NCBI RefSeq assembly: GCF_018143015.1
Contig: NC_054754.1
Coordinates: forward strand, 19,781,094-19,845,093
DNA: 64,000 nt
DNA from: Lytechinus variegatus
Taxonomy: Eukaryota > Echinodermata > Echinoidea > Temnopleuroida > Toxopneustidae
Direction of reading: 5' to 3'
Program-made: the position numbers and the translations under genes
Shown: in pieces, positions 5,123 through 34,400 of the stretch
How positions within the stretch are numbered: the first letter of the stretch is position 1
How the letters are laid out: the number at the start of each line of letters is the position of its first letter
Notes under the pieces: model-generated
Told to the model about the DNA's origin: nothing
The model's input: only the letters and a program-made list of their open reading frames with translations
Databases searched by the model: none

Positions 5123-8100
5123 ATGGTTCTAATGTGGAAAAGGGAAGTCTTTGTGGTCAAACCACATTATCTAGATGTTCCACAAGGAATGTCTAAGGCG
5201 GCCAAATATCTCGATAATCTTAGAGCAAGTATGGTTGAAGAAGATACTGAGAACTTCTCTCCATTACTAACGTCTTTAAGAAATGGTCACCTTGATGAAG
5301 TACGAAACCTAGTCAGTCAAGGGGCGAACGTGAATCAGGGTGACGCCCGGGATGATGCTGAAGCTAGCTGGACGCCGTTAGTGATCGCAGCAAAGACCGG
5401 CAGAGTGGAGCTGTTGAAATTTCTCATCGATCAAGGGGCTGATATTAGAAAGTCTGTTAAAGGATTGACTGCTTTGCACTTTGCCGCTTTCTTTGGTCAT
5501 CTTGATGCTATCAAATATCTGATTAGTCAAGGGGCTGAGGTGAACGGGGAAGGCGATACTGGAGCCACTGCAATACATACGGCTGTTATATATGGCCATC
5601 TTGATGTCATCAGATATCTTATCCATCATGGAGCGAAGGTGAACAAAGGAGACAACAATGGTGTGACTGCATTACACACTGCTGCTTACAATGGTCATCT
5701 TGATGTCACCAAATATCTGATCGGTCAAGGGGCTGATGTGAATAAAGGAAATGACAATGGTTCGACTGCATTACACGTTGCTGCAATGAATGGTCATCTT
5801 GATGTCACCAGATATTTAATCCACCAGGAAGCCAAGGTGAACAAAGGAGATAACAATGGTGTGACTGCATTACACTTTGCTGCAAGTAATGGTCATATTG
5901 ATGTCACCAAGTGCCTGATCAGTCAAGGAGCTGAAGTGAATAACGAAGACAACAATTGTTGGACTGCGTTGCACGTTGCTGCTGAGAATGGTCATCTTGA
6001 TATCATCAAATATCTTATCAGTCAAGGAGCAGATGTGAAGAAAGGAGATAAAAATGATTGGACTGCAATACAAATTGCTGCCCAGAATAGTCATCTTGAT
6101 GTCATCAAATATCTTATCAGTCAAGGAGCTGACGTGAATAAAGGAAATGACAAAGACGTGACTATATTACAAATTGCTGCTAAGAATGGCTATCTTGAGA
6201 TCACCAAATATCTGATCAGTAATGGGGCTGAAGTGAATAAAGGATATAACGATGGTATGACTGTATTACACTTTGCCGTTCTGAATGGTCATCTTGATGT
6301 CGTGAAATATTTGATCAGTCAAGGTGCTGAAGTGAATAAAGAAGACAATGATGGCGTGACTGCATTACACATTACTGCTTTCTATGGTCATTTGGATGTC
6401 ATCAAATATCTGATCAGTCAAGGGGCTGAAGTGAATAAAGGAGATAACAAATGTTGGACTGCATTACACATTGCTGCTCAGAATGATCATCTTGATGTCA
6501 TCAAATATCTGATCAGTCAAGGGGCTGAGGTGAATAAAGGAGATAACAAATGTTGGACTGCATTACACATTGCTGCTCAGAATGATCATCTTGATGTCAT
6601 CAAATATCTGATCAGTCAAGGGGCTGAGGTGAAAAGGGAAAACAACATTGGTGCGACGGCACTACACATTGCTGCTCAGAATGGTCATCTTGACGTTACC
6701 ACATATCTGATCAGTCAAGGGGCTGAGGTGAATAAAGGAGCTAACTATGGTTCGAGTGTATTACACAGTGCTGCTTACAGTGGCCATCTTGATGTCGTCA
6801 AATATCTGATTAGTGAAGGGGCTGAGGTGAATAAAGGAAATGAAAACGATGTGACTGCATTATACATTGCTGCTGAGAATGGTCATCTTGACATCACCAA
6901 ATATCTGATCAGTCAAGGGGCTGAGGTAAAAAGAGAAAATAATGGTGTGACTGCATTGCACACTGCTGCTGAGAATGGTCATCTTGATGTCATCAGATAT
7001 CTGATCAGTCAAGGGGCTAGGGTGAATAAAGGAGATAGAAATGGTGTGAGTGCAATACACAGGGCTGCTAAGAATGGTCATATTGATGTTGTCGAATATC
7101 TGATCAGTCAGGGGGCTAGGGTGAATAAAAGAGATAACAATGGCGCGACAGCATTACACACTACTGCTTTCTTTGGTCGTCTTGATGTCATAAAATATTT
7201 GATCAGTCAAGGGGCTGAGGTTAAACAAGGAGATGACAATGGTTTGACTGCATTACACATTACTGCTAGCTTCGGCCATCTTGATGTAACCAAATATCTG
7301 ATCAGACAAGGGGCTGAAGTGAATAAAGGAGATAACAATTGTTGGACTGCATTACACAGGGCTGCTAAGAATGGTCATCTTGATGTCATCATTTTTCTAA
7401 TCAGTCAAGGGGCCGAAGTGAATAGAGGAGATAGAAATGGTTGGACTGCATTACACTTGGCTGCTCATGATGGTCATCTTGAAGTCATTAAATACCTGAT
7501 TAGTCAAGGGGCTGAGGTGAAAAAGGGAAACAACGTTGATGCGACTGCATTACACATTGCTGCTCAGAACGGTCACCTTGATGTCATCATATACCTTATC
7601 TGTCAAGGGGCTGGGGTGAATAAAAGAGATAACGATGGTAGGACTGCATTACACATTGCTGCTAAGAATGGTCATCTTGAGGTCATCAAATGTCTTATCA
7701 GTCAAGGGGCTGAGGTGAATAAAGGAAATGACAACGATGTGACTGCAATACATGTTGCTGCTGAGAATGGTCATATTGACATCACCAAATATCTGATCAG
7801 TCAAGGGGCTGAGGTGAATAAAGGAGATGACGATGGTTTGAATGCACTACACAGAGCTGCTTACAATGGTAATATTGATGTCAGCAAATGTTTGATTGGG
7901 CAAGGGGCTGAGGTGATAACGGAAAACAACATTGGTGCGACTGCATTGCACATTGCTGCTCAGAATGGTCATCTTGACGTTACCAAATATCTGATCAGTG
8001 AAGGGGCTGATGTGAATAAAGGAGATATCAATGGTAGGACTTCATTACACTTGGCTGCTCATAATGATCATCTTGATGTCATTAAGTACCTGATTAGTCA

Positions 8101-8398
8101 AGGGGCTGAGGTGAAGAGAGGAAATAACAATGGTGTAACTGCATTACATATTGCTGCTTATAATGGTCGTCTTGAGGTCACCAAATATCTAATCAGTCAA
8201 GGAGCCGAAGTGAACTCGAAGAATGAAAACGGTTGGACTTCTTTAGACTTTGCTATTTCCAAAAATCATATTGATGTCGTTCAATTTCTTATGGCTGAAG
8301 GTGCAATTGTCCATATACTTCGTGAGCAGGGAGTCTTATACGTGGTAATTCCCTTGGTCAACACTGCAAGGCCTCTCAATGCCACTTCGAATACCGAG
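5123..8398 (+). CDS. Exon 1: start codon and 31 ankyrin repeats
   Basis: This is a single 3,276-nt exon of 1,092 codons. After about 44 N-terminal residues it encodes 31 near-perfect 33-residue ankyrin repeats with consensus TALHIAAQNGHLDVIKYLIS followed by QGAEVNKGDN-G. Repeat 17 is one residue short and the first unit has a longer loop. Repeats 13 and 14 are identical in protein and nearly so in DNA, which marks a recent 99-bp duplication. The exon ends in phase 0 at ataccgag/gtaatt (8398). If translation ran on it would stop at 8485 after a short tail unlike an ankyrin repeat. An alternative start is Met23 (MSKAAKYL). Confidence 0.95.
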
Positions 8399-11300
8399 GT
8401 AATTAATTTTTTGACTTATAGAATTCAATGTGGTGTAATTCTCAGGGCAAAAATTAAAGGGGAGCATAGGCGGGTGGGGCAATAGCAATATTGACGTTTT
8501 AAAACTCAGGGGCCCCCATCCTTTGATCCGCCCCTGAAACTGTCTTGCTTGCGCCAAACAAATCGAAATTCGACACATTGCAGAATTACGATTCGAGTAA
8601 TCCCAAACGTTTGAATCTCTTTTTTTTTTAAATAACGTTATTATTGATATGTGCTGAGTCAGTAAATAGGCATTTTAATGCAAGTATGAGGACAATTAAC
8701 AGGGGCAAAGGGATAATTTTTAGGGGTGGTTGTTAGATTGTTAACAAGCAAAGAAAGGTTTTCATGACGAAATGAATCGGATTTCGATCAGGACATACTT
8801 TAAAAGCAACTTAAAAAGAGCGATTGCTCTCATATGAAGGAGATTTAGGTCAAATCTCTGTATTTTAGCATTCCAAACTGATTTCCAGGTGTTCTGTGTA
8901 CGGTGTAACATATTATAGCACGAGATATACGATGTTTTTGTGCTCGTCATTGCAAAGCTAAAGTCACTGATCTTGACCAATCCAAGATAACAAGATAATA
9001 TTGAAAATTAATTTAATCTCTTTTATGGGTTTCATTTGTGTCTATTCTTGTTTTATTCACGACTGCATTTGAACCCCCACGGGGGGGGGGTCGATCATCA
9101 CCCCATCCACGGCTGTAAGATTAGTTTACTGGTTTTGTTTTATTCAGATTTCAGACGAGTTATACTATGGAAACCTATCACCGGAGAAGGCTTTGGTGTT
9201 CTATCCCCCGGACAATGGAGCAGAGACAGATACGGAAGATAAATCAGGCAAACTACCTCTCCGCTATGTCGAGGATGAAGCGGTGAAAAAGATGATCTTG
9301 TCGAGGTATTTTCTTCATCAGTAAACCTTTAAGCTTCTGTTTTCTTAATATGCACACTTTTTTTCTAATTAACCGATTCTATAATAGATTTTGGAGAATT
9401 ATTCCAATGAATGGAAAAAATATGTTAAACATTAAATGTATAATAACATTCGAATCCCTAGTTTTATCTTGACAGTTCAAAAGTTTAGAGTACTGATTAA
9501 ACAATAAGAAAAACAATCATAGCTCTTATATTGACTGCATACTTTGTGAATGGTGATATTACAAGATCTCGTGACTATTACATGGTTCTTTGATGTCTTA
9601 TCTCTATTTTCTTATTTACATATCTTTCATCTTTGGATGTAACTGCCTTCTAACAGAGTAAAATCTATGAATCAGTTCGTGCCAGTGTTATGTCTTGATA
9701 CTTTGTAAATATTTTTTTTTTACTATAGTCACGTTTCATTTACTTTCAGAACAAATTTTTCTGAAAAGGCTCATTATAATCAAGGTAAGAGCATTTTTAG
9801 ATGCACGGAAAAGATCACTTACGAAAATGATGGCTCAATGGTACCGCTTTGAGTTCACAAGAGCTAATTAAAAGTTGTTATACCCTTTATTTTTGCTGAT
9901 ATTTTTTTACTATTATAATTATTGTTATATTTATCCATTCATTTATTTATTCATTTGTTTATTATTATTATTGTTTTTATTATAATTACTATTATTATTT
10001 TCATGTATCCATATTCATGAACTTGATAAGCCAGACAAAATGAATTGTCTGTATGCGTGTGTAGGTGGGTCTCAGTGTGTGTGCGGGCCGGGTGATAGAC
10101 ATCCAAATTTTATCTGCAACCATAAAGTTTTGAGCACGTGTTCGTTAAAGGTCATTGTCGTGTCATTCTCTGAATAAGGCTCATTATGCATGATCGTTTT
10201 TATTCACACTTCTTGACACATACACTAGCATCTACAGATAGCCCCTTGGAATCAAGAATGTCTACTGAGGCGATTTCAGAGCATTTCACGACACCCCAGG
10301 ATGATCCAAACTCTGAAGATAAGAAGGAGCAGAGCGAGAGGAATGAAACTCAAAATCAAACCACAGAAAGAGAACAGGATCATACTGATGATGAACAAGA
10401 TGACCTGATCCAACTGGAAAAGCATGGCATTACGGTCAGGATTTCGAAATATGAAATTTACCGCGCAAAGGACATCACCGTGGAAGTGATTGAAGACGTC
10501 CCACCTGAGCTAGAGCTGAAGGAGACAGAAGCCGTCATTGCGGTTGGACTGAAGATGTCGCCTTCTGATGCAATCTTTGACAGTCCTGTGAAAGTAACGA
10601 TGCCCCATTGCGGTGCATTCTCAAAGCCAAAGGATGCAGAAGTCTACATCCATTATCGCAACAACGGTACTCTTCCGATTTCTATTTTGCCGTTTCCCTT
10701 CCACCGAGATTTTCCCCGTTCACATTTCTGAAAAATGGAGTAAAAATATTGCAGAAAATATATTTTTTATTTTAAAGTTCTAGTTCATATTGATGACCAA
10801 AACAGATAGACACCATTTGAAATATATGAAGGAGTAGAATACGGCATAAGTCGCAGAGCAGGGTGAGCGGAATGAAACTCAAAACTAAACTAAAGAGAGG
10901 AGGAAATCGTTATTCATATGGGATATTTACCATGATCACCCATTTATTGCAAGCCTCGATAGTAAGCTTCTTGCGCTTTTCACTGACCTGAACTGTGACG
11001 ACATCTTATGTGGGTTGAGTGCTAATTGCTTTTGTTTGTACATAGCATAGGACATATTATTTTGGGGGTCTTTTTGACTAGGAATTTAAAAATTTAAACA
11101 GATAAAACAATTTGAACAGATAAAAGATATATCAAAACCAAATCCGCAGAACATTTTTTGGTCAGCTTACTTGCTGGTTAGTCGTAAAATACTCTCTCCG
11201 TGTATATCTGCATTTAGATTGTAAGATATTAGGCTGACATAGAAATTGTAACCAAAAGAGAGGGAAAACACAAATATCGCATAGAGCTGCAGGTTTCCGT

Positions 11301-14300
11301 CAAATTAAACACTAGGAATTTACAAAAATACTATACAAATCATGCTATTTTAAATCAAATATTTTATCTGCATAATTTATATTAACATTTTTTTTATGTC
11401 GCATCAAACGCATGTAATCACAACTTCTTCCACGTTAGATGACGTCATAGAATCTTCGCGTTAAGAAGAACAAAAACCAAACAAAAATAAACAAAAGCAT
11501 CGAAACTAAACAAAAAAAAAACATTTCCGAGGCTCGCGAATTTGAGTATTCCACATTTTGTATGAAAACGTAAAAATATTTTTTAAAAGAATGAAACTTT
11601 AATCTTTGTATTCCGTAGATTAACAATTTTCCACTTTTATTTCATCTGTGACTCTTGTTTCCTGCTTTCGATAAGGCGTTGGAAGAAGGCCACTGAAATA
11701 TATTCAGGACGTTTGGACCCCTTTTAACAGCACATATCTTTTGCTATCTTTTTGCTTCGTGGTTGACACACTTAAAAAAATTAATACAGATTCTACAAAG
11801 TTTACTGCAATTCTTTGTGCCAGCACGAGTAACGTGAGATGTGTTGTGAGAGATCGCGATCTGGACATCTACGTCAACCACTTCTCAGAATATTGGATTG
11901 TTGCTAAAATACGACGGATATTTATTGGCAAACGTGTTGTCTGTACACCAATCATTCCTGTGTCAGCACCTAGAAATCGCCTGCCCGTTATGTGGGTCAA
12001 TGTCAGGGACCAAAATATTGCAGAAGGACAGGTTAGTCTTATCTTTTTTTTTATATCATACTTTATTCAAAACTACTCTCTGAAATACTAGTAAGAGGAT
12101 TAGGCCTACTGTACAATTCATTTAAGACCAACCTTTACCACCGTATATTTACCATGATTTTATTTGTGAAGGTGTTCACTATGATTTTCCTTTATGTTTG
12201 CACGTTGAATACAGATTAGAAAATTCTTTAAGCTTTTGTCGAGTGCCTAGTAACATCAACTTTGTTTCAGCTTATTATTGGTAAACCATTTTCCCGCTAC
12301 ATGTAGACCAATTCGCATATCATTTTGTAATTCATCAATATTTCTTGCTCTAAAAAGCAAGACGGTATCATCAGCATGCATATGTACTTTGCATTCGAAA
12401 TCAGTAAAAGCCAATGGAAGACTATTGATGTAAATCGTAATGGTTAGTTTCGGTCATTATCGCTCATTTGGTTTGCGTAGCAGACGATGCTAGCCTGCTA
12501 GTATACACTCTAAAAACAAATCAGTCAAAAATGACTAGGTAATATGGTCAGCTGGATGCAATTATTATTCTAGTCATATTTGACTATTTTCTAGTCACAT
12601 GTTACTAGAACAGAGTTATTTCTAACTAGTCAAAAATATATGTCAGAAATGTGAATATCAGTGATTACCCTATCAGTTGCTCCCAGCTGACTACTGGTCT
12701 AGTCAATTTGACTGATTTGTTTTAAGAGTGTATAGTATATTTACGCAGACCCTATTACAAATAAAAATCAATTCCGGACTCGATATCTGCTTCCTCAAAC
12801 TGTAGCTATCATATGAATATTAGTAGGCAAAGTTTTATAGTGGAAGAACATTTTTACTTTCAACATTAAATTATTTAATTAAGTTTAATTTAGACTGTAT
12901 TAATTGTTCCAAATGAAAAGGGTCTAGAAGCGGAAACTATCATACGTTAGTCACGTCACATTGTACACAGAAATATGCCATGTTCTGCCTGCTCGATCTC
13001 AAAGTTTCGGGGGAAATGAGATGTAACCATTATACCAGTCATACAATATTATACATCAAACTGTAGATAATCTATTTAGCATTGAGATGACAATCAATCT
13101 CGACCTCTTTGACCCTAAGGGATATTCCACTCGGAAAACAAAGGTGCCACGGTCTCGAAAATATGGGTGATTTCAGACCGTTTGCCATAGCAAGAGTTCT
13201 GAACATGGACACTTTCAAATGAGCGGCGATTGTAATAATTGTAGTTGTAATAATGTTTACATCAAATTAATGGAATCGGATACAATTTTCACTCTATTTT
13301 CAATCTGGTGTGAGATTATTAATAATTATAAAGATATACCCGAATTTCTGCAATATCACGTCCATGAAAAACACTGTTCCCTGTGTTGAAGCTGTGTGTG
13401 TGGACTTTCGGACACTCAAATGCACACGAACAACCATTATGTACAAAAATTAACGGCCATAATATTGAGCCTTGAGGCACTGGGGCAAGTAAAGACATGC
13501 GATCATCTATATTGTGCTCTCTGATCTGAACCACTGTATCTCGACCTTTGACACCAGTATGACATAATTTTTCTAATAGTATAATGATGGTCAATTGTGT
13601 CAAATGCCTATTCAGATCAACCAAACTTGCTCCAGTGACGAAACCGTCGTTTTTACCTCTAAGAATGTGATCAGTACATGTATCAGTGCAGTTTGGGTTG
13701 AATGATACAGTCTCGTAACAATATTTTCTTTGGAGAAATTTGTAGAGTTGATTATGAACCGCCCTTTCTAATATTTTGGATACAACGGGAAGGACGGATA
13801 TAGGTCTGTAGTTTCCGATGTCTTCTTGATCACCACTCTTACAAACTGGAGAAACTTTTGCTATTTTCTATTTATCAGGAAATGTTTGTAAGTAATGTCA
13901 GTGATTTCGCAATAATGGGACATGCAAATTTTAGAAGCCTGGGGGATATTCCATTGATTCCTGTAGCTTTATCCGATTTCATAGCTCTTGTATCCTTTTT
14001 CACAAACGCTATGCTCATTGGTTCAAATGTAAAGTTATCCCCTAGATTTTCAGGATCGTCATCAAATATCGAATGATCGATTTCATCATCATTAAATCCG
14101 GCAGCAAGTTTCTTTCCAATATGAACAAAGTATTCATTGAACTCATCTGCCAAAAGTTTATTATTATGTTGTATCGGCATAGTTCTGACTTTAGACATAG
14201 ATAGCGCTTCTTTTGTTATTATTTTGTGCACTGTCGTCATTTTATCTTCCTTTGTGTCTTTTGTTTGTTTGCGTGACTGCATTAGAGTTATTGTTCTCTT

Positions 14301-17300
14301 TACGCTGTGCTTTAAGTTAACATTAAGCTTGATTTAGTTGCTGATGAACTTGCGGCCGTAAGTCTGCACAACTAAACATCTAAGCAACTCGCTGTGTGTA
14401 TGTGTTTGTGAGGGTGTGTGTGGGTGAGTGTGTGTGGAGGTTCATTCGTGTTGGCGAGGGTGTGTGTGTGTGTGAGTGTGTGCGGAGGTTCATTCGTGTT
14501 GGCGAGTGTGGGTGTGTGTGTGTGTGTAGTACTAAATCAATGGAGGGATGGGGATGAATCACTTGTGAATCTGCACTCCTGATTCCTGACATAGTCAGAA
14601 CTCAAAGTATCTGAATTCAAGCTTAGTGTTAAATTTAAATTTAAATAAAAATACATATGCATAATATTGAATAGAAAAATACAATCCTACCACACCGTGT
14701 ACACTTATGGGACGTTGCAAGAAACTTGCAATCTATTGCAAGTCTATTTTCATTCCCGAAATCAAGCACATGCTGTGCAATCAATTGCAAATTTGCGATT
14801 AATTGCTAATCTGCTCCATGAAATAAGGAGTGTAATCCGATTCAAAAAAGTAAAAAGTGATGATTAAATCAACTGTAAAATTGCAACAGAATATTTGCGA
14901 TTGATGTTACGTTTACGTAACACGTGATGTAAACCAAACTCGTAATGGCAGCAAACAATTTTTTTATGAGAAAGTACTAAGAAGCAGGATAAGTTTTCAC
15001 GAAATCACCGTAGTTCCAGATCTGGTAAACTAAATCTATGAAATCATAAAATAGAAGGTGAAGAAACACTGAAGGTCGCCGACAATGAGAAGTATATGTG
15101 GGGAAGTGTGTGCATGGAAAAAAAGACCCGATAACTGGTTGGAATGTCATGCTTGTTTGGCTTCTTTCTTTGCAATTATCTTTTTTTTTACCGGACTAAT
15201 TTGGAGCATGTTTCATATTTATGCACACAAACACTTTGGCGGTCATATAATTGGATTCGGTTCAACCTCATTTTCGAGATCGTTACCACAACTGACATTT
15301 ATCTTTCTTTACCAAGAATTGTAGAGAACAGAAATTATTATTCTAGTTAGTTCCTAGGATATGTCCTGACTCATGAATGATCTAATATAGAATAGAATGT
15401 ATAGAATAGAAATATTCAAAAAAAGATAAGCAGGTTCTAACTATGCCACATTATTTATTCTAATACGGTTTATTAAAACAAGGATCTACTATAATTCAAG
15501 AGACATTCATTTCAAAACTATAGAAATTGTTCTTTTTGTTTAGTATTTTTCTTTTAAAACCGGTGTTACTGTGTTCGCCACTTTCTCTCGAAATATAAAT
15601 GTTGATACCTCTTTTCTGACTTTGCATTTTCATCGTTGTTTTTAAAGGTTCCAAAGGGATATGAGGTCCCGATTCCTGGAGAGCAATTCTTAATCAGGTG
15701 GAAGTCAGGGGGATTACAAATTTCTTGTAAAGAAAGTACGTTGAAAGACAAGCCCCAGGTAATATCATTTTGGACTTTCAGGGGGGGGGGGGGGCTAAAA
15801 CAGAAGTACATGGTCCTAGGACGTTGGATGCTGCAAAATTTTCTTTGGGGTGCTACATGTATCGTTGTGCATAGGCAGCACCCCCATATACATGTATTCT
15901 GGAAGATACATGTATGTAAAAAATGTAAAAATCTAACCAAAATGACCTTCTTTTTCTTGTGAACCCCCTTTTTTGCTTTTCTAATTTATCGGGCCCAATT
16001 GTACCTCCATTTGTAGTGAAAAACTTTTTTGTTTTGTTTGCTTTTCAAATCTACATCAGTACCCCCAATAAAAAAATCGTTCTCAGGTCCCTGCAGAAGT
16101 TATCGCAAATGTAAAGTTACGTAACCTATAAGTCTTATCTAATCGCATATAATATCACATATTTGTATACCAGGCAAGGTCACATAACGTTTTCTTCCAA
16201 TATCCCCAAAATTAATTGAGTATCTATCGAATGGAAAAAAAAATCACTCGCAGAAAGTGCTTTCTAGAGCTAATTTCAAAATAGCTTATTGATAGAAATT
16301 GCAATACGAGTTTTCCTTCAAACTGTGTGTATAATTTTGTTGTAGATTGTCCAGGAAAGGGAATTTCGTCATCTCACTGAGCACAAAGTAATGTTCGAAG
16401 TGGATACACCAAATATCACTGAGAATGAAGTCAACCTACACATCACCCTAAAACAGAATACAACGAAGATGCTCATAGTTCCAATGTCATTAAATGGTAT
16501 AAAATAGTTGTGTTGGTACACGATTTCACATCATCCAGGGGGGCGTTTCATCAATATTTTCGTCCGACAAGTTTTCAGATCTGACAACTTTCCTGGGTTC
16601 TGATTGGTTGAGAAGCACTGTTACTATAGTAACTGTCGGATAAAACAGGACCTGTCGGATAAAACGTATGACAAGTCCTTTCATGAAATGCTCTCCAGGT
16701 GAAAGAAAGATGCTCTTTTCAACTAGGCGTAGCTGAGTCTCTCTCTCTTTCACCAAATGCGAAATCTCGTATAAGAATATTTTATGAAAATATTAATAAT
16801 ATATCCAAATTCCTTGATAAGAGTGACCATGTGCAATTCAAATTACCTAATAGCTAAGAGTTTTCGCTGATAAATTTAATTTTTCAAATTCAGCTCTAGA
16901 ATTATAAAATAAAATCAGTTAAAGGTTTTAAATTCTGTTCAACAAATATTCATTTCTTTGTTAATATTCTCGTGGGTTCTTTGATGTATTTTTGTAGTTT
17001 TAACAAAGAAATAGAAAATCATACCTTCATTGTTTTTCTGTATTTGAAGAGCTCACTTGCAAAAAGGGGCTAGGTCCATTTTCCATCAAACTTGATTTTT
17101 ATGTCTAATGTATAGATTTCTAGTAGCTCTAAAAGATGATACCAAAGAAAAGTTGAAATTTCTATTAAAAAGTGAACTAAAATGGCAAAGAAAATCACTT
17201 TTTTAGGTCCATTTCAGTTTACTTGCAAAAGGGCTGGGGCCACACAGATTTTTTTGGGAAAAGAATAACTTAAAAAATATGAAGACAGCTAGATTTTTCT

Positions 17301-20300
17301 TATACCCAATTTTATGTTCTCATGGTAGGTTATCAAAAATTCAGTTTCGCATGAAAATATTGCAGTATGGGAGAATTCAAAAAAAATATTTTCTTGGAAA
17401 GGACCTAACCCCTTTTGCAATTAAACTCTTCTGAATAACTCATTTGTCAAAAGGGGCCATTTTTCATAATTTTTGTCTCACCTGCGAAGCAAAGTGAGAC
17501 TATAGGCGCCGCTTTTCCGACGGCGGCGGCGGCGGCGGCGTCAACATCAAATCTTAACCTGAGGTTAAGTTTTTGAAATGACGTCATAACTTAGAAAGTA
17601 TATGGACCTAGTTAACAAAACTTGGCCATAAGGTTAATCAAGTATTACTAAACATCCTATTAGAGTTTCATGTCACATGACCAAGGTCAAAGGTCATTTA
17701 GGGTCAATGAACTTAGACCATGTTGGAGGAATCAACATCGAAATCTTAACCTGAGGTTAAATTTTTGAAATGTCATCATAACTTAGAAAATATATGGACC
17801 TAGTTCATGAAACTTAGACATAAGGTTAATCAAGTATCACTAAATATCCTGCATGAGTTTTACGTCACATGACCAAGGTCAAAGGTCATTTAGGGTCAAT
17901 GAACTTTGGCCGAATTGGGGATATCTGTTGAATTCCCATCATAACTTTGATAGTTTATGGATCTGATTCATGAAACTTGGACATAATAGTAATCAAGCAT
18001 CACTGAAAATTTTGTGCAAGTTTCAGGTCTCATGATTAAGGTCTAAGGTCATTTAGGGTCAATGAACTTTGGCCGAATCGGGGGTATCTGTTGAATTACC
18101 ATCATAACTTTGAAAGTTTATTGGTCTAGTTCATTAAACTTGGACATTAGAGTAATCAAGTATCACTGAACATCCTGTGCGCGTTTCAGGTCACATGACC
18201 AAGTCAAAGGTCAATGAACTTTGGCCGAATCTGGTGTTTCTGTTGAATTACCATCATAACTTTGAAAGTTTATGGATCTGATTCATGAAACTTGTACATA
18301 AGAGTAATCAAGTATCACTGAACATCCTGTTCGAGTTTCAGGTCACATGATCAAAGTCAAAGGTCATGTAAGGTCAATGAACTTTGGCCATGTTGGGGTT
18401 TTTTGTTGAATAACCATCATATCTCTGTAAGTTTATTGGTCTAGTTCATAAAAAGTGGACATAAGAGTAACCATGTATCACTGAACATCTTGTGCGAGTT
18501 AGAGTAGTATTCAAAGTCAGCACTGCTGCTATATTGAACCGCGTGATGCAGGTGAGACGGCCAGAGGTATTCCACTTGTTTATTGTTTTCTGTCTCTAAT
18601 GATGATGATACCAAAGACAATTTTCAATTCAAATGAAAGAGTGAATTAAAGTGGCAAAGAAAAATAAATTTTTAATCAAAAGAGATAGGATTCATTTCAG
18701 TTTACCTGCAAAAGGGCTTAGGTCCACAATGATAATTTTTTTAAATATATATAGAAAGAAATTGAAGACCGGTAGATTTCTTTCATACCCAATTTCATGT
18801 TCACATGATAGGGTAGCACATCATGACACTTTAGTTTCTCATAAGAATATTGCAATAAGTGAGAATAAAAAAAACATGTTTTTTTTCTCGGAATGGTCCA
18901 AAGTGGACCTAACCCCTTTTTGCAACTAAACTCTTCATTTCTGAAATGCCAGCATGTTATAATAGATGAAGACCGATGAGGCTTAATGTCATTTGAATGG
19001 TTTGGCCATCGATGAATTGCAGACTTAATAGGGTCTATCAATGAATAGGGTTAACTTACGATGTAGAAAATGCTTAAATGGACCAAGCATGCGAGATCAA
19101 TGTTCATCCCAAAACTTGAATACCACATTTCGAATTGAAAAAAAAAAATGAATATTTCTACAATGACCCATTCTTTTCATTAGAGCGAATTCAAAGTTTG
19201 TTAATATGTCTATAATAATATATTATGTCATTCGTCTCTTAATTAGAAACAGCTACGGTGATGTCAGAGGGAGGAGCAGGTTCACCATCAACGATAGCGT
19301 CATCATCCTCATCGGCTGACAATCATCCTGCAGAAACCGTGGGTTCTGGTTCTACTTCTGAAACAAGGTGAAAATCTGACAGTATGGTTAAACTTCGTAA
19401 TTCCGAAGGTTCGTAATTCCGAAACACGTAAATTGCCTATACCATGTTGTTCGTTAATCGGAAAACGTAAAAGGGTTCGTTAATCCGAACATTTGTGGCG
19501 TTATTCCGAAGGTTCGATAATCCGAAAACGAAATAAGGTATTTTAGTCCGAAAGGTTCGTTAGTCCGAAAACGGAATAAGGTTCGTTGTTCCAAAGGTTC
19601 GTTAATCCGAAAAACGAAATAAGGTTCGTTGGTCCGAAAACAAAATAAGGTTTGTTAATTATTACGTTTTCGGACTAACGAACCTTCGGAATTAAGAGCC
19701 TCATTTCGTTTTCGGATGAACGAACCTTCGGAATTATGAGCCTTCGGAAATACGAACCTTCGGAATATCCGAACCTTCGGAATAACCGAACCTTCGGAAT
19801 AACGAAGCTTCGGAATTACGAATGTATGCGGACAGTATATCGTATTGACAAGTAAGCAAAATTTTATCCGAATGGAATGATTCAATAATTTGATTTCTTT
19901 TAAACACTTGACAGAAGGGCATGGCATACTGTAAATACTTGCATACTTTGTAAAATTCAAGTGCGTTGAAATGGGCATATGTTGCATACCAACTCCATTT
20001 TAAACTTTAAACCCAATATCCATTATTTCCAAGAACTTAACCTAATATAAACTAAACAAACTCAGTATCGAATAAGGAAAGGTAATATACAAATAGCTTA
20101 CTCCACAAATAGTAAATTTATCTTTTCTCAATTTCATTAGCCGCTAATGTGAATGGTATGCCTCATAACAGTAGTGATGTGGAGAATATGAAATGAAAAT
20201 GTCCTTTGCAGGATAAATGTTGTTCTTTTTCCTAAAAACAACTTTTAGAAATGGGCAGAAAATGTCACATTATAATCTTTGTATACAGATATTACATTTT

Positions 20301-21017
20301 TAAGATGATTGCTCAAAGAACACTTCTCGGAGGAAAATAAAATAACTGCCAAGAGAGGACGCTACACTCTAACAGAATAGTTGAATTTGTTCAAATCGGC
20401 AGTCGAAAAAAAAACAACTTCTTGGTAAGAATGCCGTGTAAGATGATGCTCAAATTTTACCATTATTTGTCATCTATCAGCTTTAGCCGGTCTTTCATTT
20501 TTTTGGGTCAAACGCCGTTATAATCTTCTTACGATTTATTATAATCTTCATGAAATTGTTGGACCTTGGCAGACGAATTAATCCATGCGGGTGATCAAAC
20601 ACAGTATGTATAAAACGGTGTTTGCAATTATGATAATGATCCTCGTGGTCATTATTGTTGAACATCTTTACAATCATCGCCCATTCATCTCCATAAATTT
20701 CATATATCTTTTGTAGAGAGCCAGGGGGAAAATGTGAGAGCGATTTCGATGACATTCTGAGGGCGATTGCAAAGAAGATCGTCAAAAGCAGTGATATTGA
20801 TAATCTAGGCGGTAAGCTTGGCTTTGAACCAGAAGATACACAACGCTACATACAGTCTAACACGGATGCAGATTACATGGGGACGCTGAATATGCTCCGA
20901 ACATGGAGGAGAGGAACAACTGAATCAAAAGAACGTGAACAGTTGGGGAAAGCCCTTTTAGATATCAAGCGGAAGGATCTGGCAGACAAATGCGTGGGTG
21001 ATGCCAAGCTTAAATGA
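5123..21017 (+). CDS. Ankyrin-repeat / ZU5 / UPA / death-domain protein, nine-exon gene model
   Basis: I infer one host gene from nine exons whose splice phases all agree: 5123-8398, 9148-9305, 9750-9784, 10238-10666, 11790-12031, 15648-15758, 16346-16496, 19247-19367 and 20717-21017. They add to 4,824 nt, or 1,607 residues plus TGA. Domain order is 31 ankyrin repeats (about residues 45-1070), an acidic linker, one ZU5 domain (about 1214-1345), a UPA-like region (about 1346-1467), a Ser/Thr-rich linker (1468-1507) and a death domain (about 1515-1600). There is no signal peptide or membrane segment, so it is probably cytoplasmic. Canonical ankyrins carry two ZU5 domains; a single ZU5-UPA-death tail is the layout of UNC5 and PIDD1. 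By family knowledge, death domains recruit other death-domain adaptors and ankyrin repeats bind protein partners. The start ATG has a good context (caccATGG). The exact partner and pathway cannot be read from sequence. Confidence 0.88.
8399..9147 (+). other. Intron 1 of the ankyrin gene
   Basis: The 749-bp intron begins gtaatt and ends ttttattcag. Near 8,508-8,535 it contains caggggcccccatcctttga / tccgcccctg, which looks like a solitary hAT-type terminus. Nothing else is recognised. Confidence 0.6.
9148..9305 (+). CDS. Exon 2: linker after the ankyrin array
   Basis: The acceptor ttttgttttattcag/att (9147) follows a strong pyrimidine tract and takes the phase-0 exon 1. The frame reads ISDELYYGNLSPEKALVFYP ... 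KMILSR and ends in phase 2 at tcgag/gtattt. No known domain is visible. A competing acceptor at 9154 would break the frame. Confidence 0.8.
9750..9784 (+). CDS. Exon 3: 35-nt micro-exon
   Basis: The acceptor tttactttcag/a is followed by 35 nt ending at the near-ideal donor caag/gtaagagc. It takes phase 2 from exon 2 (Arg across the junction), reads TNFSEKAHYNQ and leaves phase 1. Its small size makes it easy for gene finders to miss. Confidence 0.78.
10238..10666 (+). CDS. Exon 4: acidic linker and first part of ZU5
   Basis: The acceptor tagcatctacag/at accepts phase 1 (Asp across the junction). The first 57 residues form a charged linker rich in Glu, Asp, Gln and Asn. ZU5-like sequence follows from LEKHGITVRISKYEIYRAKD to SPVKVTMPHCGAFSKPKDAE and VYIHYRNN. 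The PV-V-MPHC core is the ZU5 hallmark. The exon leaves phase 1 at aacaacg/gtactc. The usual glycine-rich ZU5 start is weak, so the domain is divergent at its N-terminus. Confidence 0.88.
10667..11789 (+). other. Intron 4 of the ankyrin gene
   Basis: The intron is AT-rich and contains no recognised gene. The stretch 10851-10905 resembles part of exon 4 (10324-10375), including the shared word ggaatgaaactcaaaa, and may be a decayed partial duplication of the exon. Confidence 0.5.
11790..12031 (+). CDS. Exon 5: end of ZU5 with HFS motif
   Basis: The acceptor attaatacag/at takes phase 1. The frame reads DSTKFTAILCASTSNVRCVV and then DLDIYVNHFSEYWIVAKIRR, and leaves phase 0 at ggacag/gttagt. The NHFSEYW segment corresponds to the C-terminal ZU5 strand. 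In PIDD1 and UNC5CL a His-Phe-Ser at this kind of site is cut autocatalytically between Phe and Ser. Here it would be residues 1330-1332, encoded at 11879-11887. Cleavage itself is an inference. Confidence 0.88.
12504..12732. mobile_element. MITE with about 26-bp terminal inverted repeats in intron 5
   Basis: The element begins TACACTCTAAAAACAAATCA and ends with the reverse complement of TACACTCTTAAAACAAATCA. The bases tagta occur immediately outside both ends, so a 5-bp target duplication is possible. The interior is rich in 'agtca' words on both strands (ctagtcatatttgactattttctagtcac) and has no coding capacity. Confidence 0.8.
13310..14290 (-). mobile_element. LINE fragment (CR1/L2-like reverse transcriptase)
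   Basis: On the minus strand the stretch reads through typical non-LTR reverse transcriptase motifs: NKLLADEFNEYFVHIGKKLA, then MKSDKATGINGISPRLLKFA, then YRPISVLPVVSKILERAV around 13,800, then VPQGSILWPLIF near 13,480. Frames change several times and no full-length open frame remains, so this is a dead 5'- and 3'-truncated copy inside intron 5 of the ankyrin gene, antisense to it. Confidence 0.82.
14394..14530 (+). repeat. (TG)n-rich minisatellite, two 60-bp units
   Basis: The unit gtgtgtgtggaggttcattc / gtgttggcgag occurs twice between runs of gtgtgt. It is a tandem duplication inside a dinucleotide tract. Confidence 0.75.
15648..15758 (+). CDS. Exon 6: UPA-region segment
   Basis: The 111-nt exon runs from tgtttttaaag/gtt to ccccag/gtaata, phase 0 at both ends. 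It encodes VPKGYEVPIPGEQFLIRWKS, then GGLQISCKESTLKDKPQ. The beta-rich character and position after ZU5 fit the start of a UPA domain. It has no independent signature. Confidence 0.8.
15781..15794 (+). repeat. G14 homopolymer, 23 bp after exon 6
   Basis: An uninterrupted run of 14 guanines lies in intron 6 just after the donor of exon 6. It may form G-quadruplex-like structure in the pre-mRNA. Confidence 0.9.
16346..16496 (+). CDS. Exon 7: UPA-region segment
   Basis: The acceptor tttgttgtag/att follows phase 0 and the exon leaves phase 1 at ttaaatg/gtataa. The frame reads IVQEREFRHLTEHKVMFEVD, then TPNITENEVNLHITLKQNTT and KMLIVPMSLN. The pattern of alternating hydrophobic strands and the V-LHITL core resembles UPA domains that sit between ZU5 and death domains. 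Confidence 0.82.
16538..16695. repeat. Palindromic MITE-like element in intron 7
   Basis: The left end gggcgtttcatcaat faces the right end tttcatgaaatgctc. The internal words gattggttgagaagcac and gttactatagtaactgtcgg also occur in the 3468-3640 element, so both belong to one family. Confidence 0.7.
17044..18945 (+). repeat. Direct repeats flanking the 17475-18558 element in intron 7
   Basis: Segments at about 17,090-17,450 and 18,585-18,930 share ordered words: gatgataccaaaga, gtggcaaagaaaa, catttcagtttac.tgcaaaagggct.aggtcca and ggacctaacccc..tttgcaa.taaactctt. They are diverged direct copies of about 350 bp lying on either side of the element at 17475-18558. The unit itself contains an inverted pair (AAAAGGGGCTAGGTCC versus GGACCTAACCCCTTTT). 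Confidence 0.7.
17475..18558. mobile_element. Interspersed element with GTCTCACCTGC termini and DR1-like motifs
   Basis: The ends are GTCTCACCTGC (17475) and GCAGGTGAGAC (18548-18558), a perfect 11-bp inverted repeat. After a (CGG)n tract at about 17,517-17,540 the body is made of five or six diverged units of about 160-190 bp. Each has tgaaacttggacataa.agtaatcaagtatcactg, then cacatgaccaaggtcaaaggtca, then tttagggtcaatgaactttgg. The repeated AGGTCAAAGGTCA word is a perfect direct-repeat-1 nuclear-receptor site at 17684-17696 and 17876-17888, with degenerate versions at about 18039, 18200 and 18355. No coding frame is visible. Confidence 0.8.
19247..19367 (+). CDS. Exon 8: Ser/Thr-rich linker
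   Basis: The acceptor tcttaattag/aa takes phase 1. The exon encodes a low-complexity linker (ETATVMSEGGAGSPSTIASS, SSSADNHPAETVGSGSTSET) and leaves phase 2 at acaag/gtgaaa. It is a flexible tether to the death domain. Confidence rests on the clean frame and matching phases, because linkers carry no family signal. Confidence 0.75.
19382..19828. repeat. TTCCGAA palindromic element, copy 1
   Basis: This is a tandem series of 'gttcgttattccgaag' and 'ccgaaaacg' units that reverse orientation near 19,660, so the whole block folds on itself. The right end cttcggaattacgaatgtatg matches the end of a second copy at 53472-53825. It lies in intron 8 of the ankyrin gene, close after exon 8. Confidence 0.85.
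20717..21017 (+). CDS. Exon 9: death domain and stop
   Basis: The acceptor atcttttgtag/a takes phase 2 (Arg across the junction) and the exon ends at TGA 21015-21017. The death domain reads from FDDILRAIAKKIVKSSDIDN through LGGKLGFEPEDTQRYIQSNT to the tryptophan helix MLRTWRRG and KALLDIKRKDLADKCVG. The six-helix spacing and the conserved Trp are typical. It would mediate homotypic binding to another death-domain protein. No polyadenylation signal is obvious in the next 100 bp. Confidence 0.92.
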
Positions 21018-28400: not shown

Positions 28401-31400
28401 AGAGAGAGAGAGAGCGAGAGTGTGAACAGGTGTGGAAGCAAGGAGTGAATTCCTTGGTGGAAGTGAGCTGTGAGTGGGAGTGGCTGAAGTGACAAGAGTC
28501 GCAAAAGAGGATTAATTGACTGAGAGAGCAGTTGGGGGAGTGGTTAAGAGAGTTACGTAAGTTGGAAGAATAATGGAAAGCCGAAGAACTTGAATTTGGA
28601 ATCGGGGTACACAATAATTAAGTTCCGTTTTATATACTTACATTATAGGCGGATTAATTTCGCGCATTACACCAAAAGTGATAGGGTCGATTTGGGAAAG
28701 GCTTTTCTCGCCACGCGGTGTTTGACCCAGAAAGGGATAAAAAGGGAGTGATTAGTTGCCAAGGGGCAGTTTTTCGTTCCCGATTTGTTTTGCCGCCGTA
28801 GGCCATGTCGGTTTGATTTTTGTCTGTCGTCGGTCGTCCAGCCCAGAGATGCGACATTTATTATTATCCAGCATGTAATTTGACTTTGATTTAGAATAAA
28901 ACGTGATACACAACTTAACTTCATCGAACTTGTCATTCTTTGACTCCCGTCTTTTTTTTGTACGTGGGCAGCGCAAGACGGTGGGCGGCCACCGGCCGTC
29001 TTGCAAAGCTGTGCCGCTACAAAATTGGTAGTACGGATGGGGTCGGTCAACCGTCATCTTCAGCATGTTCGGGGAACGTTTTAGTCCTTCAGTCTGGTTT
29101 TACGCATAAACACAATGTTTATCGGACATTGAGATAAATTCAACAAGGAGAGCTTCACTTCATGTCACCGGTTCCGGCTTATTTTTTGTTCGAGGATGTG
29201 AATTGATATTATTTTAACTTTAACGTTGGAGAGAGAAATTCAGCTGCAGGGGTTGGATTGAGCCCCCACATCGCCCGGGTTTTCGACGTTGGGACCTTAC
29301 ATGTGCCGTTGAGCTCAGGAGAAAGAACCCTTCGTCCTGGGACTCACGCGTGGCTGCATTGTAGCGAGGAGTCGAGGGACCTGTGAAAACCACTGCAAAT
29401 AGACCTGACGGGGTAGCATAGCTGGTTTCCACTAAAACCCTCCGGATTAGTTGGTACCGACGAAGTCTGGTGATTTCACATTACACTGCGGTGAGAGGAG
29501 TCGTTTAACTGCGCGAGAATCGTCTTGGAAGGGGCTGTAAAGGAACTCAGCAGGGCGATTGCTTTTCCTTTGGTCGTCTCATGAGGATGGATTGAGGTTA
29601 GGTACTGAAGGCCGCAGGCGCTAGTCCGGCTCGGGGAGTTGGACGCTATCGAGGAGCTCCGAGACATCGTTCTTCCAACCAACGCTTCGACACGGCCCTT
29701 CATCTTCGTCATCGACGTGGTGTGGTAGACCCTGTCTTCGATATCTTCGACGGTGGAAGCTGGCACTGTCGTTTGGAAGCCGATAGCCTTGGCGAGTGAA
29801 GCAGCAGGAGTCGCTGGTATGTAGTGAAGCCCTTGTTAAGATTTTTCCAGAACAGTCATTCACATTTAATGTAGACTCTCATATTACAAACTATAAGATA
29901 TGCTTGATATGTATCTGAAAAGATATGAACTCGTTATCTTCTCAACATGACGATGTGTTAAGATATGTGTGTAGCTATGCAGTTTGTTATTATGTCTGTT
30001 TTGCATTAGTGTGCATTGGGATCTGAAGGAGATAGCACAAATAAATTCTGCAAATACACCACTAGACAGAATAATAATAGTAAAAATCTAGATTCTGATA
30101 GTGTTCTTTGGCAACACATGAAAATACATCTTCAGAAAATATATATAAAATTTGCAGTCTTTTGTGCTTACCTTTATGTCAGACCCCTAATGTTTATTGT
30201 GGTCTGGACTTACACATTTCACAATTTTAACTAAATGTCTTTTTTCCTAGGTTCTGCGTCTGGTTCGATTGGTTACCTTTCTCTCCCAGAGTTAGATAGT
30301 AGACTATTTAATAAGTGTGTTATAACTGAAGGTTTATCGTAGTTGAGGTTGCATCTCCTTTCAGTAGTATTCACATATACATAGTAAAATTATGGCTGAA
30401 AAGTTAGTTGAAGATTTAGTAACCGGTTTAACCGAAGCATTACAAGGGTGTAGGTTTACCCCTAGTGATAGAAGTACCAGACTTGAGAGATTTTCTGGAC
30501 AAGGTGGCATTTCCCTTACCGAATGGTTAGAAGAAATAGATCTTTATTGTGAACAATACCAAATCTCTGAAACTCAAAAAGTGCGGCATAATCAGAGCAA
30601 ATTTGGAAGGTGCAGCACGTAAAAAAGTTGTTTTTCGGGGAAATAAGATACTAAAAGTATTATTGAACTATTTCAAAAACATTTTGGAAAGAAACAAACT
30701 GTGCAATCTTTGCAGCAAGCCTTTATGAAATCCAATCGAAGTCTGGTGTTTCTGACCAAGAAAATTTGTTAGGTCCCACTTTTTCTAATTTGTTTCCTTC
30801 CTTTTCGCCTGAACGACTCATTCAAATGCAGAAAATTGACCCAGAACTGAGATTTGTGTGGGAACGGTGGAGTGCGCACTGGAAACCGGGGGATGAATTT
30901 CCCGCACGTTTTTCAGAACCGGATAGTTTGAAACAATGGTTATATCAATGGTCTAATTTTACTGTTAAAGATGGAATATTAGGAAGGAAGGTTCTTGATC
31001 CTTTATTTGGTAATATATTTCAAATTTTACTCCCACAGTGTTTGCGTAAAGAGTATTTTAGTTGGATGTCATGATGAATGGGGACATCAAGGTAGAAATA
31101 AAACTGAACAATTAGCTAGGTCAAGAGTTTATTGGCCTGGCATGGCTCGTGATATAAAATTTTATGTTAAAAGATGTATTAAATGTGCTAAGGCAAAGGA
31201 GATGCAGCCTCGGGTAAGAACCCCAATGAGACATCTAATGGCATTTAGTCCATTGGAAATTATTGCTATTGATTTTGTTAAGTTAGATCCTGGTAAGGGA
31301 GGATTTGAGGATGTACTTGTTATTACAGATGTATATACGAAATTAGCTCAGGCAATCCCTTGTAGAAATCAACACGCCTCAACAGTAGCTAAAGCTCTAC

Positions 31401-34400
31401 AAGAGCACTGGTTCACAAAGTATGGAATTCCAAATAGAATTCATAGTGATCAGGGACGTAATTTTGAGGGTCAGGTGATAAAAGAATTATGTAGGCTTTA
31501 TGGTATACGTAAGACTCGTACAACACCATATCATCCTGAGGGTAATGCTCAGGCTGAAAGATTCAATAGGACTTTATTTGGCCTAATCAAATCGCTGGAT
31601 CAGCGTGATAGACGTAGATGGCCTGAATTATTGCCTCATCTTGTCTACATGTATAATACGTACCACCCCCCACGAAACTACGAGGGTCAGCCCTTTTGCT
31701 CTTATGTTTGGTAGGAAAGAGCGTATTCCTTTAGATCATTTGTTGGGTGTGTCTGATGTAGAATGGGAACAAGACTTTGTTAAAGAACAAGCCGAGTTGG
31801 TTGAGAGGGCTCAAAAAGTTGTCAAAGAAAGAACTGACAAGGTAGCAGCCCGGAATAAGGCCCGAGCTGATGCAAATATCTCTGCAAGTCCCCTCCCCTG
31901 GGCATAGGATCTCTTGTTTACTTAAAGAAGTGTGCTTTTAGTAAAAGACACAAGTTGGAGAATGTTTATTTTGATGAATTATATGTTGTTGATTGGATAA
32001 ATCCTACTGAGGATATTTATCGTATCCGACCTATTAATGGAGGTAATCCAAAGATAGTGAATCGTAGGCTAATAAGGAAAGTACCTTCTGAATCAGATGT
32101 GGTTGACCAAAATATGGAAGATTTTGGGTTATGAGAGAAGGAAAATCATTGCTAGCTACAAGGATTCTAGAAAAGATTTTGAGGATGAATATGTTTTAGT
32201 ACCAGAAAGAGTAACTACAGAAACAGTAGGGGAGAGTACTGGTCTAACCAGAGTACGGATGGGGGCGTACAAGTGGGCGTACCAGAAGCGGAACAAGTGG
32301 AGGTGTCGTCCAGAGGAGATCTCAAAGACAAAATAAAGGCATTTCATTCTAATCCATACAACTTACCTAAGTCTGTATTGGAAAAATAAAGTAATAAGTA
32401 AAAAATTAAAATTTACCTTGGGTCTCTGGGCTGGACTCCGCCTTCAATTATTTATGACGATGACAGTTTTATTATTTGGACATAGCTTTGTGAAACGATT
32501 AGTAGGGAGTGGGGTAAGGAGCATGTATTTGGAAATTGGTGGTAAATAACAAATATTGAGAAGTTTTGGAGAAGGTGACTCAACTTTGAAAGAATGCTAC
32601 ATAATACAAATACATAGGGATATGTTCTGGGTTTGGGAGCACCGTTCCCTGCCGGATGCACCCCATAACAGAAAGGGGGAAGGAGCTATACCTACGTAGA
32701 ATAGTAAGTTTTTGTCAGACACATTTTTGGATTTAATTAGTTTTTTATTATTGTGGGATAAATGATGTACATCAGTGATTATGGGTTATATGTATGATTG
32801 CTTGGTTCTATTGATTGATTGGCCCAGTTTGGTTTGCCGACATGGATCATTTAATATATTTTGTGATATTAATTAATCTGTAAATATGTAATTATATTTG
32901 TCCTTATAGGAAAACCACATATCAGACGGCAGGATGGTGTCAAACGGAACTGGAGGAGGCATGGGATATCCACCTCTGATGGTAGTTTTGATATCATCCC
33001 AAAGTCTTGGTAAATGGTAGAAAACAAGTAATGTTTGGGTTATTTTTTTGTTCATGTAAAAGGATTTGTAAAATCTGAACAAATGAAAGAAGGGATTTAA
33101 AAAAAAAAAAACAATTGTTTATCTTTTTAATGTGGAGGTTTACCCTAGAGGTGCACTATGTCATCTGTTTGGAAGCAAAGGATGAATTGTACATAAAAAA
33201 AAACACTGTAAAGTAATGATTCTGAAAGTATAACACATAAAATAATAGTAACTTTCAGAATAACCGTCATTATTTGTAAGCATAGCAGAGCGAGGTCTAA
33301 CATGTGCATGCATGCTGTTTAATATCAAAATTTACTGTTTACTGTTTATGATACATGTTCATGGTTGATAATGCCTGAAGTTGATTGTTCATGGTTTACA
33401 ATTACAACCCATCCATTGATTAATGTTCAATTGATTAATAAACACTTTTACTAGGGCATTATACAAGTATGCTGATGCAAAATATTTTTTTAGTATCATT
33501 TTGGACATGAAACATGCACTTGTTAACTAAGGTTATTTATAGTTTTTTTTTTTTATATATATAAGATGACCAGATTTACTGCTGTTGGTTTTCATTTTGT
33601 AAGGTGGATATAGATACGGATATGGATAATTTTACATTTCACATGTATCATTACTGTTACTACTGTACATGTATGTTTATGTACCTGTAGTATTTTTGAC
33701 ATAACTAGTTGTGCATAAGAGGTATAATGAAGGTTAAATAGATGTTTAGAGGTTGAATTTGTAACTAAACCTTTCAGTCCATTTTTTCAGGGGTCTGGAG
33801 TGTTTATCTTTGAAGGGGTGATGTCATCGATGAAGCAGCAGGAAGCTTGGGTCATCCACTTCCCAATGCCTATACGTTGACATTCCCTGATAGAAGCTCT
33901 CCAAATCCTATTTTTAATTTAAGAAGGTACAGGTATAATGTATATACATGCAATCTATTTACCAAAAAGGGGAAGATTTTGAAATAACGATATTTGGCAT
34001 AAATATAGGACGATGTTGAAATGTTTATATTGTTTATGACAAATTGTAAGTGTCATGGATGGACGACCGTCAGTATCAACAATTCTTTTTTTTCCTGATT
34101 TTTTGCGATCTTATGGAACAGATCGATTCAGTAGGGGAGAGTTATAGCGGGATGGAAAATAGAGATTTGTTTGTTTGGGTAAAGAAGTTCGTTCGCCTTC
34201 TTCCATTGTTTACATTCCTTAAAGGTGTTGATTTCGTTTGCTAGTTTTTCTGGGCCAGGCTAGCGATTGGAATGTGGAAGTGAAAGAGGGCAAACTGACT
34301 GGGTTGCTAGGTGTTCAGGACTAATAGAAGTCCATTGGAACTTCAGTTATTTACTACTTTGCTTCTTATTCATGTTCTTCGGCTCGCTTGCATTCTTCAG

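Follow-up and report, generated by a model that had tools for sequence, protein, structure and literature searches.

Within the window, the 64,000-nucleotide stretch of Lytechinus variegatus DNA analysed here, a single gene is predicted to encode a protein in which an array of approximately 31 ankyrin repeats is followed by one ZU5 domain, a UPA domain, a linker and a Death domain. A two-step comparison of sequences places a His-Phe-Ser (HFS) motif of this protein at the position homologous to the cleavage site of known autoproteolytic ZU5-UPA proteins. Self-cleavage at the Phe-Ser bond is likely, whether the cut would prepare a sensor for release or would simply generate a constitutive signalling fragment; retention of both halves and their release upon degradation is suggested more weakly, by analogy. 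To the complete reading, in which the ZU5-UPA-Death protein is autoproteolytic and its ankyrin half acts as a sensor whose degradation frees the rest in the manner of NLRP1 and CARD8, we would give an even chance.

The motif is encoded at window positions 11879-11887 on the + strand by CACTTCTCA (CAC TTC TCA), within the residues NHFSEYW and in frame within an open exon at 11790-12031 (acceptor AATACAG/AT, donor GGACAG/GTTAGT), which is where the initial annotation had reported it. A gene model assembled manually, using open frames together with splice signals, extends from 5123 to 21017 on the + strand and joins nine exons across eight introns, all eight of which are GT-AG with consistent phases; the product is 1589 residues long and the one stop codon is terminal. 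The motif here falls at H1312-F1313-S1314, which replaces the residue numbers 1330-1332 assigned to it earlier, and the UPA-Death fragment, previously estimated at about 276 residues, is exactly 276 residues from Ser1314 to the C-terminus of the splice-signal model, with a computed mass of 30.7 kDa. The proposed architecture of 31 ankyrin repeats, ZU5/UPA and Death likewise held on the splice-signal gene model, with the number of repeats being approximate.

All nine exons lie on the + strand. The ankyrin-repeat exon at 5123..8344 (residues 1-1074) is an open frame with Pfam Ank matches and 29 copies of the repeat pattern. It is followed by a cap-like exon at 9148..9305, placed by splice signals and common to paralogues at 50-87% identity, and by a short linker exon at 9750..9784, placed by splice signals and phase, of which the same 12 residues occur in a near-identical copy of the locus (L086, described below). 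The exon at 10238..10666 encodes a further linker and the greater part of ZU5 (genome match C15:19791504-19791743), and the exon at 11790..12031, defined by splice signals and having 77 genome matches including itself, contains the end of ZU5, the HFS site with its predicted scissile Phe-Ser bond, and the first UPA strands. Two UPA exons, both placed by splice signals, are located at 15648..15758, with homologues in L011, L013, L014, L023, L024, L027 and L028, and at 16346..16496, with homologues in L011, L013, L014, L023 and L028. A Ser-rich linker exon at 19247..19367 was placed by splice signals and phase only, and the Death domain exon, which includes the stop codon, occupies 20717..21017. 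Elsewhere in the window, an open frame on the - strand at 35639-39106 contains endonuclease, reverse transcriptase and RNase H domains of the non-LTR retrotransposon type; a retroelement integrase fragment (H2C2 and rve domains) is found on the + strand at 30995-31711, and an open frame on the - strand at 42498-43649 resembles an MFS transporter weakly, scoring under the Pfam cut-off.

The repeat count is the sum of 29 ankyrin copies that fit a 33-residue pattern, interrupted by one gap of 70, plus one copy within the gap and an irregular last copy, both of which were assigned by eye; Pfam Ank gave strong matches in nine stretches within the first 343 residues, the part that was submitted. Pfam recognized one ZU5 domain in the gene, scoring 28.6 bits against a cut-off of 21. 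The Pfam UPA profile gave no match to the window gene, and the UPA was recognized by profile-profile alignment only, along its whole length (E=1.9e-6); across the genome, the same Pfam profile exceeded its cut-off only in three exons of a contig 18 gene taken for UNC5, with a weak match on contig 11. The last exon scored 18.9 bits with Pfam Death, below the cut-off of 22.6. An AlphaFold2 single-sequence model of this exon comprises six helices (mean pLDDT 73.9, the best of five models, the others being at 46-57), and its best solved folds in Foldseek were the death domains of ankyrin-1, which was the top match, ankyrin-G, TNFR1, p84 and Fas/FADD, with probabilities near 1 and weak E-values (at least 0.075, none at or below 0.001); CARD and pyrin folds ranked below the death domains. 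The eighth match (E 0.35) was 2of5, an oligomeric death-domain complex which we take to be the PIDDosome core; this resemblance of fold is no evidence of RAIDD binding. When solved structures were searched by sequence, the spliced ZU5-UPA (as a single sequence) and the Death exon each produced one chance match (E 0.31 and 0.37, respectively), and the site-exon profile produced none.

The position of the motif was assessed with hhalign, in which a family profile of the window gene and its paralogues was compared with two UNC5-like sequences of the same genome (L002 and L003) together with UNC5B from structure 3g5b. The alignment covered 244 columns (E=1.9e-6) with a score of 48.6, as against a top score of 20.6 in 100 column shuffles of the same comparison. 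The window HFS aligned with the HFS of L002 and L003 and with QLG of UNC5B, such that DIYVNHFSEYW of the window sits over QVYLSHFSLYT of L002; masking the motif to X in both profiles left the register the same. Against UNC5B alone the family profile aligned over 126 columns, covering ZU5 and the site only (E=1.3e-4), again with HFS over QLG. The Leu of QLG is residue 137 of the 405-residue 3g5b chain, as counted in the alignment, and is presumably Leu677 of the full-length protein of 945 residues, provided that the construct starts at residue 541. PMC3210808 gives CARD8 Phe296, the residue before the cut (P1), as the counterpart of UNC5B Leu677, and describes PIDD as being cut at HF/S after each ZU5. 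Because the motif aligns to UNC5B QLG, and UNC5B Leu677 is the published equivalent of CARD8 Phe296, the site appears to be correctly positioned. The check suggested in the initial annotation, whether HFS sits at the known cleavage position, thereby comes out in favour, by way of UNC5-like HFS and UNC5B QLG and then by the Leu677-Phe296 equivalence; for PIDD, the cut site is taken from the description in PMC3210808. L002 and L003 are neighbouring genes at C2:47.74 and 47.76 Mb, which we infer to be UNC5CL-like, and the UNC5 candidate of this genome (L085, on contig 18) has QLG at the aligned place, providing an internal case without the site.

In NLRP1 and CARD8, according to PMC7483925, the ZU5-UPA region cuts itself, the halves stay associated, and the C-terminal half is set free once the N-terminal one is destroyed. 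The anatomy of the window gene is the same, which suggests that it works alike, with ankyrin repeats in the sensor half. The cytosolic ankyrin-ZU5-UPA-Death product would sever its chain at the Phe1313-Ser1314 bond shortly after it folds, with Ser1314 attacking this strained bond, followed by an acyl shift and hydrolysis. The resulting ankyrin-ZU5 half (1313 residues) and UPA-Death half would be held together by the ZU5-UPA interface; upon damage to, or removal of, the ankyrin half, the UPA-Death half would be freed to oligomerise and signal.

In NLRP1 and CARD8, the essential His precedes the Ser by 27 residues (in CARD8, H270 and S297; PMC8081665 and PMC3210808). A catalytic His is absent at -27 of the window gene, checked by sequence position only, where the residue is Thr1287. 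Within 60 residues upstream of Ser1314, the other His residues are at -37, which is not conserved, and at -52, in a TMPH motif that is usual in these ZU5 domains. PIDD and Nup98 have a His within HFS itself, and mutating that of Nup98 had a slight effect only (PMC3210808), so an HFS-type site may rely on a different base.

The initial annotation treated the gene as a single protein, whereas a census of the genome revealed a large family whose members variously retain the site, carry Cys in place of its Ser, or have lost it. In the 869.6 Mb searched (33 contigs, with the window on contig 15, C15), the Pfam ZU5 profile gave 119 matches, many of them on contigs 6, 8, 9, 16 and 19; this ZU5 set is a large lineage expansion. 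With the site exon as query, 77 matches were obtained, which correspond to 76 separate loci since C19:584084 overlaps C19:583942 and the two were counted as one; all 76 were read. This census leaves out eight further loci found by another query and two weaker matches, C14:421911 (E 0.57) and C9:26460542 (E 0.64). The site residues were HFS in 31 loci, HFC in 6, HCA in 24, HSA in 6, RCA in 3 and other in 6, the latter being AYN (1), KLG (1), ANS (2) and ADS (2), with the site placed from the alignment in all six and unsurely in the four ANS/ADS loci, where there is an insertion.

Phe was followed by Ser or Cys in every Phe-bearing locus (37/37). The residue following the Phe position in the 39 Phe-less loci was Ala in 33, Ser in 4, Gly in 1 and Asn in 1; these 33 of the 76 loci, which lack the Phe and have Ala where the cut would fall, are referred to as Ala-type. 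As many as 30 of these 33 paralogues nevertheless retain the His, which may therefore be structural; on its own the His is no sign of cleavage, a role that falls to Phe and Ser. Among the 27 closest loci (E<1e-10, window exon included), which were picked irrespective of motif, His and Phe were present in all 27, with Ser next in 21 and Cys in 6, and 9 of 59 columns (those with at least 25 letters) were invariant. A separate 27-row alignment, A1, was picked for His-Phe, and its invariant columns are no evidence. Nine different codon triplets encode HFS across the 31 copies, indicating that conservation acts on the amino acids. A chance occurrence of the tripeptide was ruled out by this conservation and by the aligned position.

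In a FastTree tree of the site exon, one branch (support 0.984) split all 33 Ala-type copies from the rest, in an alignment of 86 columns, many of them gapped, and with several deep branches being weak. Since a single branch holds all 33 copies, the Ala-type class looks like the product of about one loss of Phe plus Ser. The placement of the six HFC paralogues suggests that Ser changed to Cys twice, once in L021 and once in the L029-L033 group. As read from these sequences, the site pattern reflects few evolutionary events, namely about one Phe-plus-Ser loss now represented by 33 copies, a small number of isolated losses, and Ser replaced by Cys on two occasions.

The exon following the ankyrin array (9148..9305) was matched in at least 14 other loci, 13 of Ala-type and the near-identical copy, with some of the locus spans stopping short; in L011, L013, L014 and L028, the exons for ZU5, the site and UPA follow one another as in the window gene. 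When all 100 genome matches of the Death exon were counted, a window-type Death exon was found no more than 20 kb downstream in 8/37 HFS/HFC loci and in 3/33 Ala-type loci; at the other loci it is farther off, too diverged, or absent. Given these counts, an ankyrin array or a Death domain is not claimed for the family as a whole. Window positions 5421-10615 are copied on the same contig, 311 kb away, at C15:19475000-19480200 (L086; 5.2 kb, 98.9% identical), where the site exon is near-identical too (L010) and no Death exon lies closer than 104 kb downstream; this copy is either a recent duplication or an assembly remnant. Another paralogue, L034 (C19:583942-584127), has an in-frame TAG in its site exon, five codons before HFS, and its first part matches as a separate piece (C19:584084), so that this copy looks broken.

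The degradation-release reading was weighed against three others. Cleavage could be real but constitutive, as in PIDD1, with a stable UPA-Death fragment doing the signalling and the ankyrin half not serving as a bait whose destruction sets it off. PIDD combines a repeat array, ZU5, UPA and Death and is cut at HF/S after each ZU5 (PMC3210808), and the window protein too ends in a Death-like domain and not a CARD; PIDD has two ZU5 domains with a cut after each, however, and the window gene has one, and we regard this alternative as possible but rather doubtful. Less probable again, and in our judgement unlikely, is that no cleavage occurs, with HFS being structural at the ZU5/UPA boundary of an uncut scaffold like the ankyrins or UNC5B. 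Such a role would fit the retention of His in 30/33 Ala-type paralogues, which are incapable of cleaving in this way and so indicate that the motif is partly structural; it would also fit the FIIND catalytic His having no counterpart at its position, and the existence of relatives without the site, such as the UNC5 candidate with QLG. If the motif served structure only, one would expect Ala, Thr or Gly to be allowed beside Phe, yet Phe is always followed by Ser or Cys (37/37) and Phe-less loci mostly carry Ala (33/39), with the qualification that few evolutionary events lie behind these counts.

It is also conceivable that the gene model is in error or that this copy does not function, in which case the motif and the ankyrin array would never occur in one translated protein. 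The exon joins were made from open frames and splice signals alone, paralogue L034 carries its TAG in the site exon, and the near-identical copy has its nearest Death exon 104 kb away; against this, all nine exons are open, the introns are GT-AG with consistent phases, and four loci repeat the ZU5-site-UPA exon order (L011, L013, L014 and L028), leaving this explanation very improbable.

A search of the open-licence literature, a scope outside which most subscription papers fall, found, among the entries listed, no paper dealing with an ankyrin-ZU5-UPA-Death protein that cleaves itself, nor any dealing with this sea urchin family. The mechanism is known and the architecture varies on it; of most use is the series of paralogues. 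We tentatively propose, as a conjecture that could well prove mistaken, that the ZU5-UPA family, of which at least some members are ankyrin-ZU5-UPA-Death proteins, would be trip-wire sensors triggered by destruction of the ankyrin half, in parallel with NLRP1 and CARD8; that the one clade in which Phe-Ser became Cys/Ser-Ala would supply uncleavable partners or decoys; and that the two Ser-to-Cys lineages would cut themselves with a thiol. If the window protein cleaves itself, the range of self-cutting ZU5-UPA sensors would come to include an expanded ankyrin-Death family of an invertebrate, and a single genome would supply an HFS, HFC and HCA/HSA series for testing the purpose of cleavage. Cleavage would also bear on whether degradation sensing predates NLRP1 and CARD8 or occurs more broadly than in those two.

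Among known systems, PIDD1 shares with the window gene a repeat array, ZU5, UPA and Death, and an HFS at the end of ZU5 (PIDD site from PMC3210808); likened by description, PIDD1 has LRRs and two ZU5 domains, whereas the window gene has ankyrin repeats and one ZU5, by which an identity as PIDD1 was ruled out. NLRP1 and CARD8 have ZU5-UPA with Phe-Ser at the homologous position, a sensor at the N-terminus and a signalling domain at the C-terminus, but their motif is SFS, their signalling domain is a CARD and their His is at -27, in contrast to HFS, a Death-like domain and Thr at -27 in the window gene. Identity as a FIIND protein was ruled out by the lack of both the His at -27 and a CARD; the Pfam FIIND profile gave no match across the genome, but the controls were likewise silent, so that this result does not speak for an absence of FIIND. 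UNC5CL undergoes autoproteolysis, and the UNC5-like L002 and L003 resemble the window gene in having HFS at the aligned position; they differ in that a hydrophobic, membrane-like segment, identified by eye, precedes ZU5 and in that the one exon inspected lacks ankyrin repeats. Canonical ankyrins, described in PMC5135030 as 24 ANK repeats, ZU5-ZU5-UPA and Death, differ from the window gene, with its one ZU5 and approximately 31 repeats in one exon, and the single ZU5 ruled out this identity as well; they share with it the order ANK, ZU5, UPA, Death, and the death domain of ankyrin-1 is the best fold match of its last exon.
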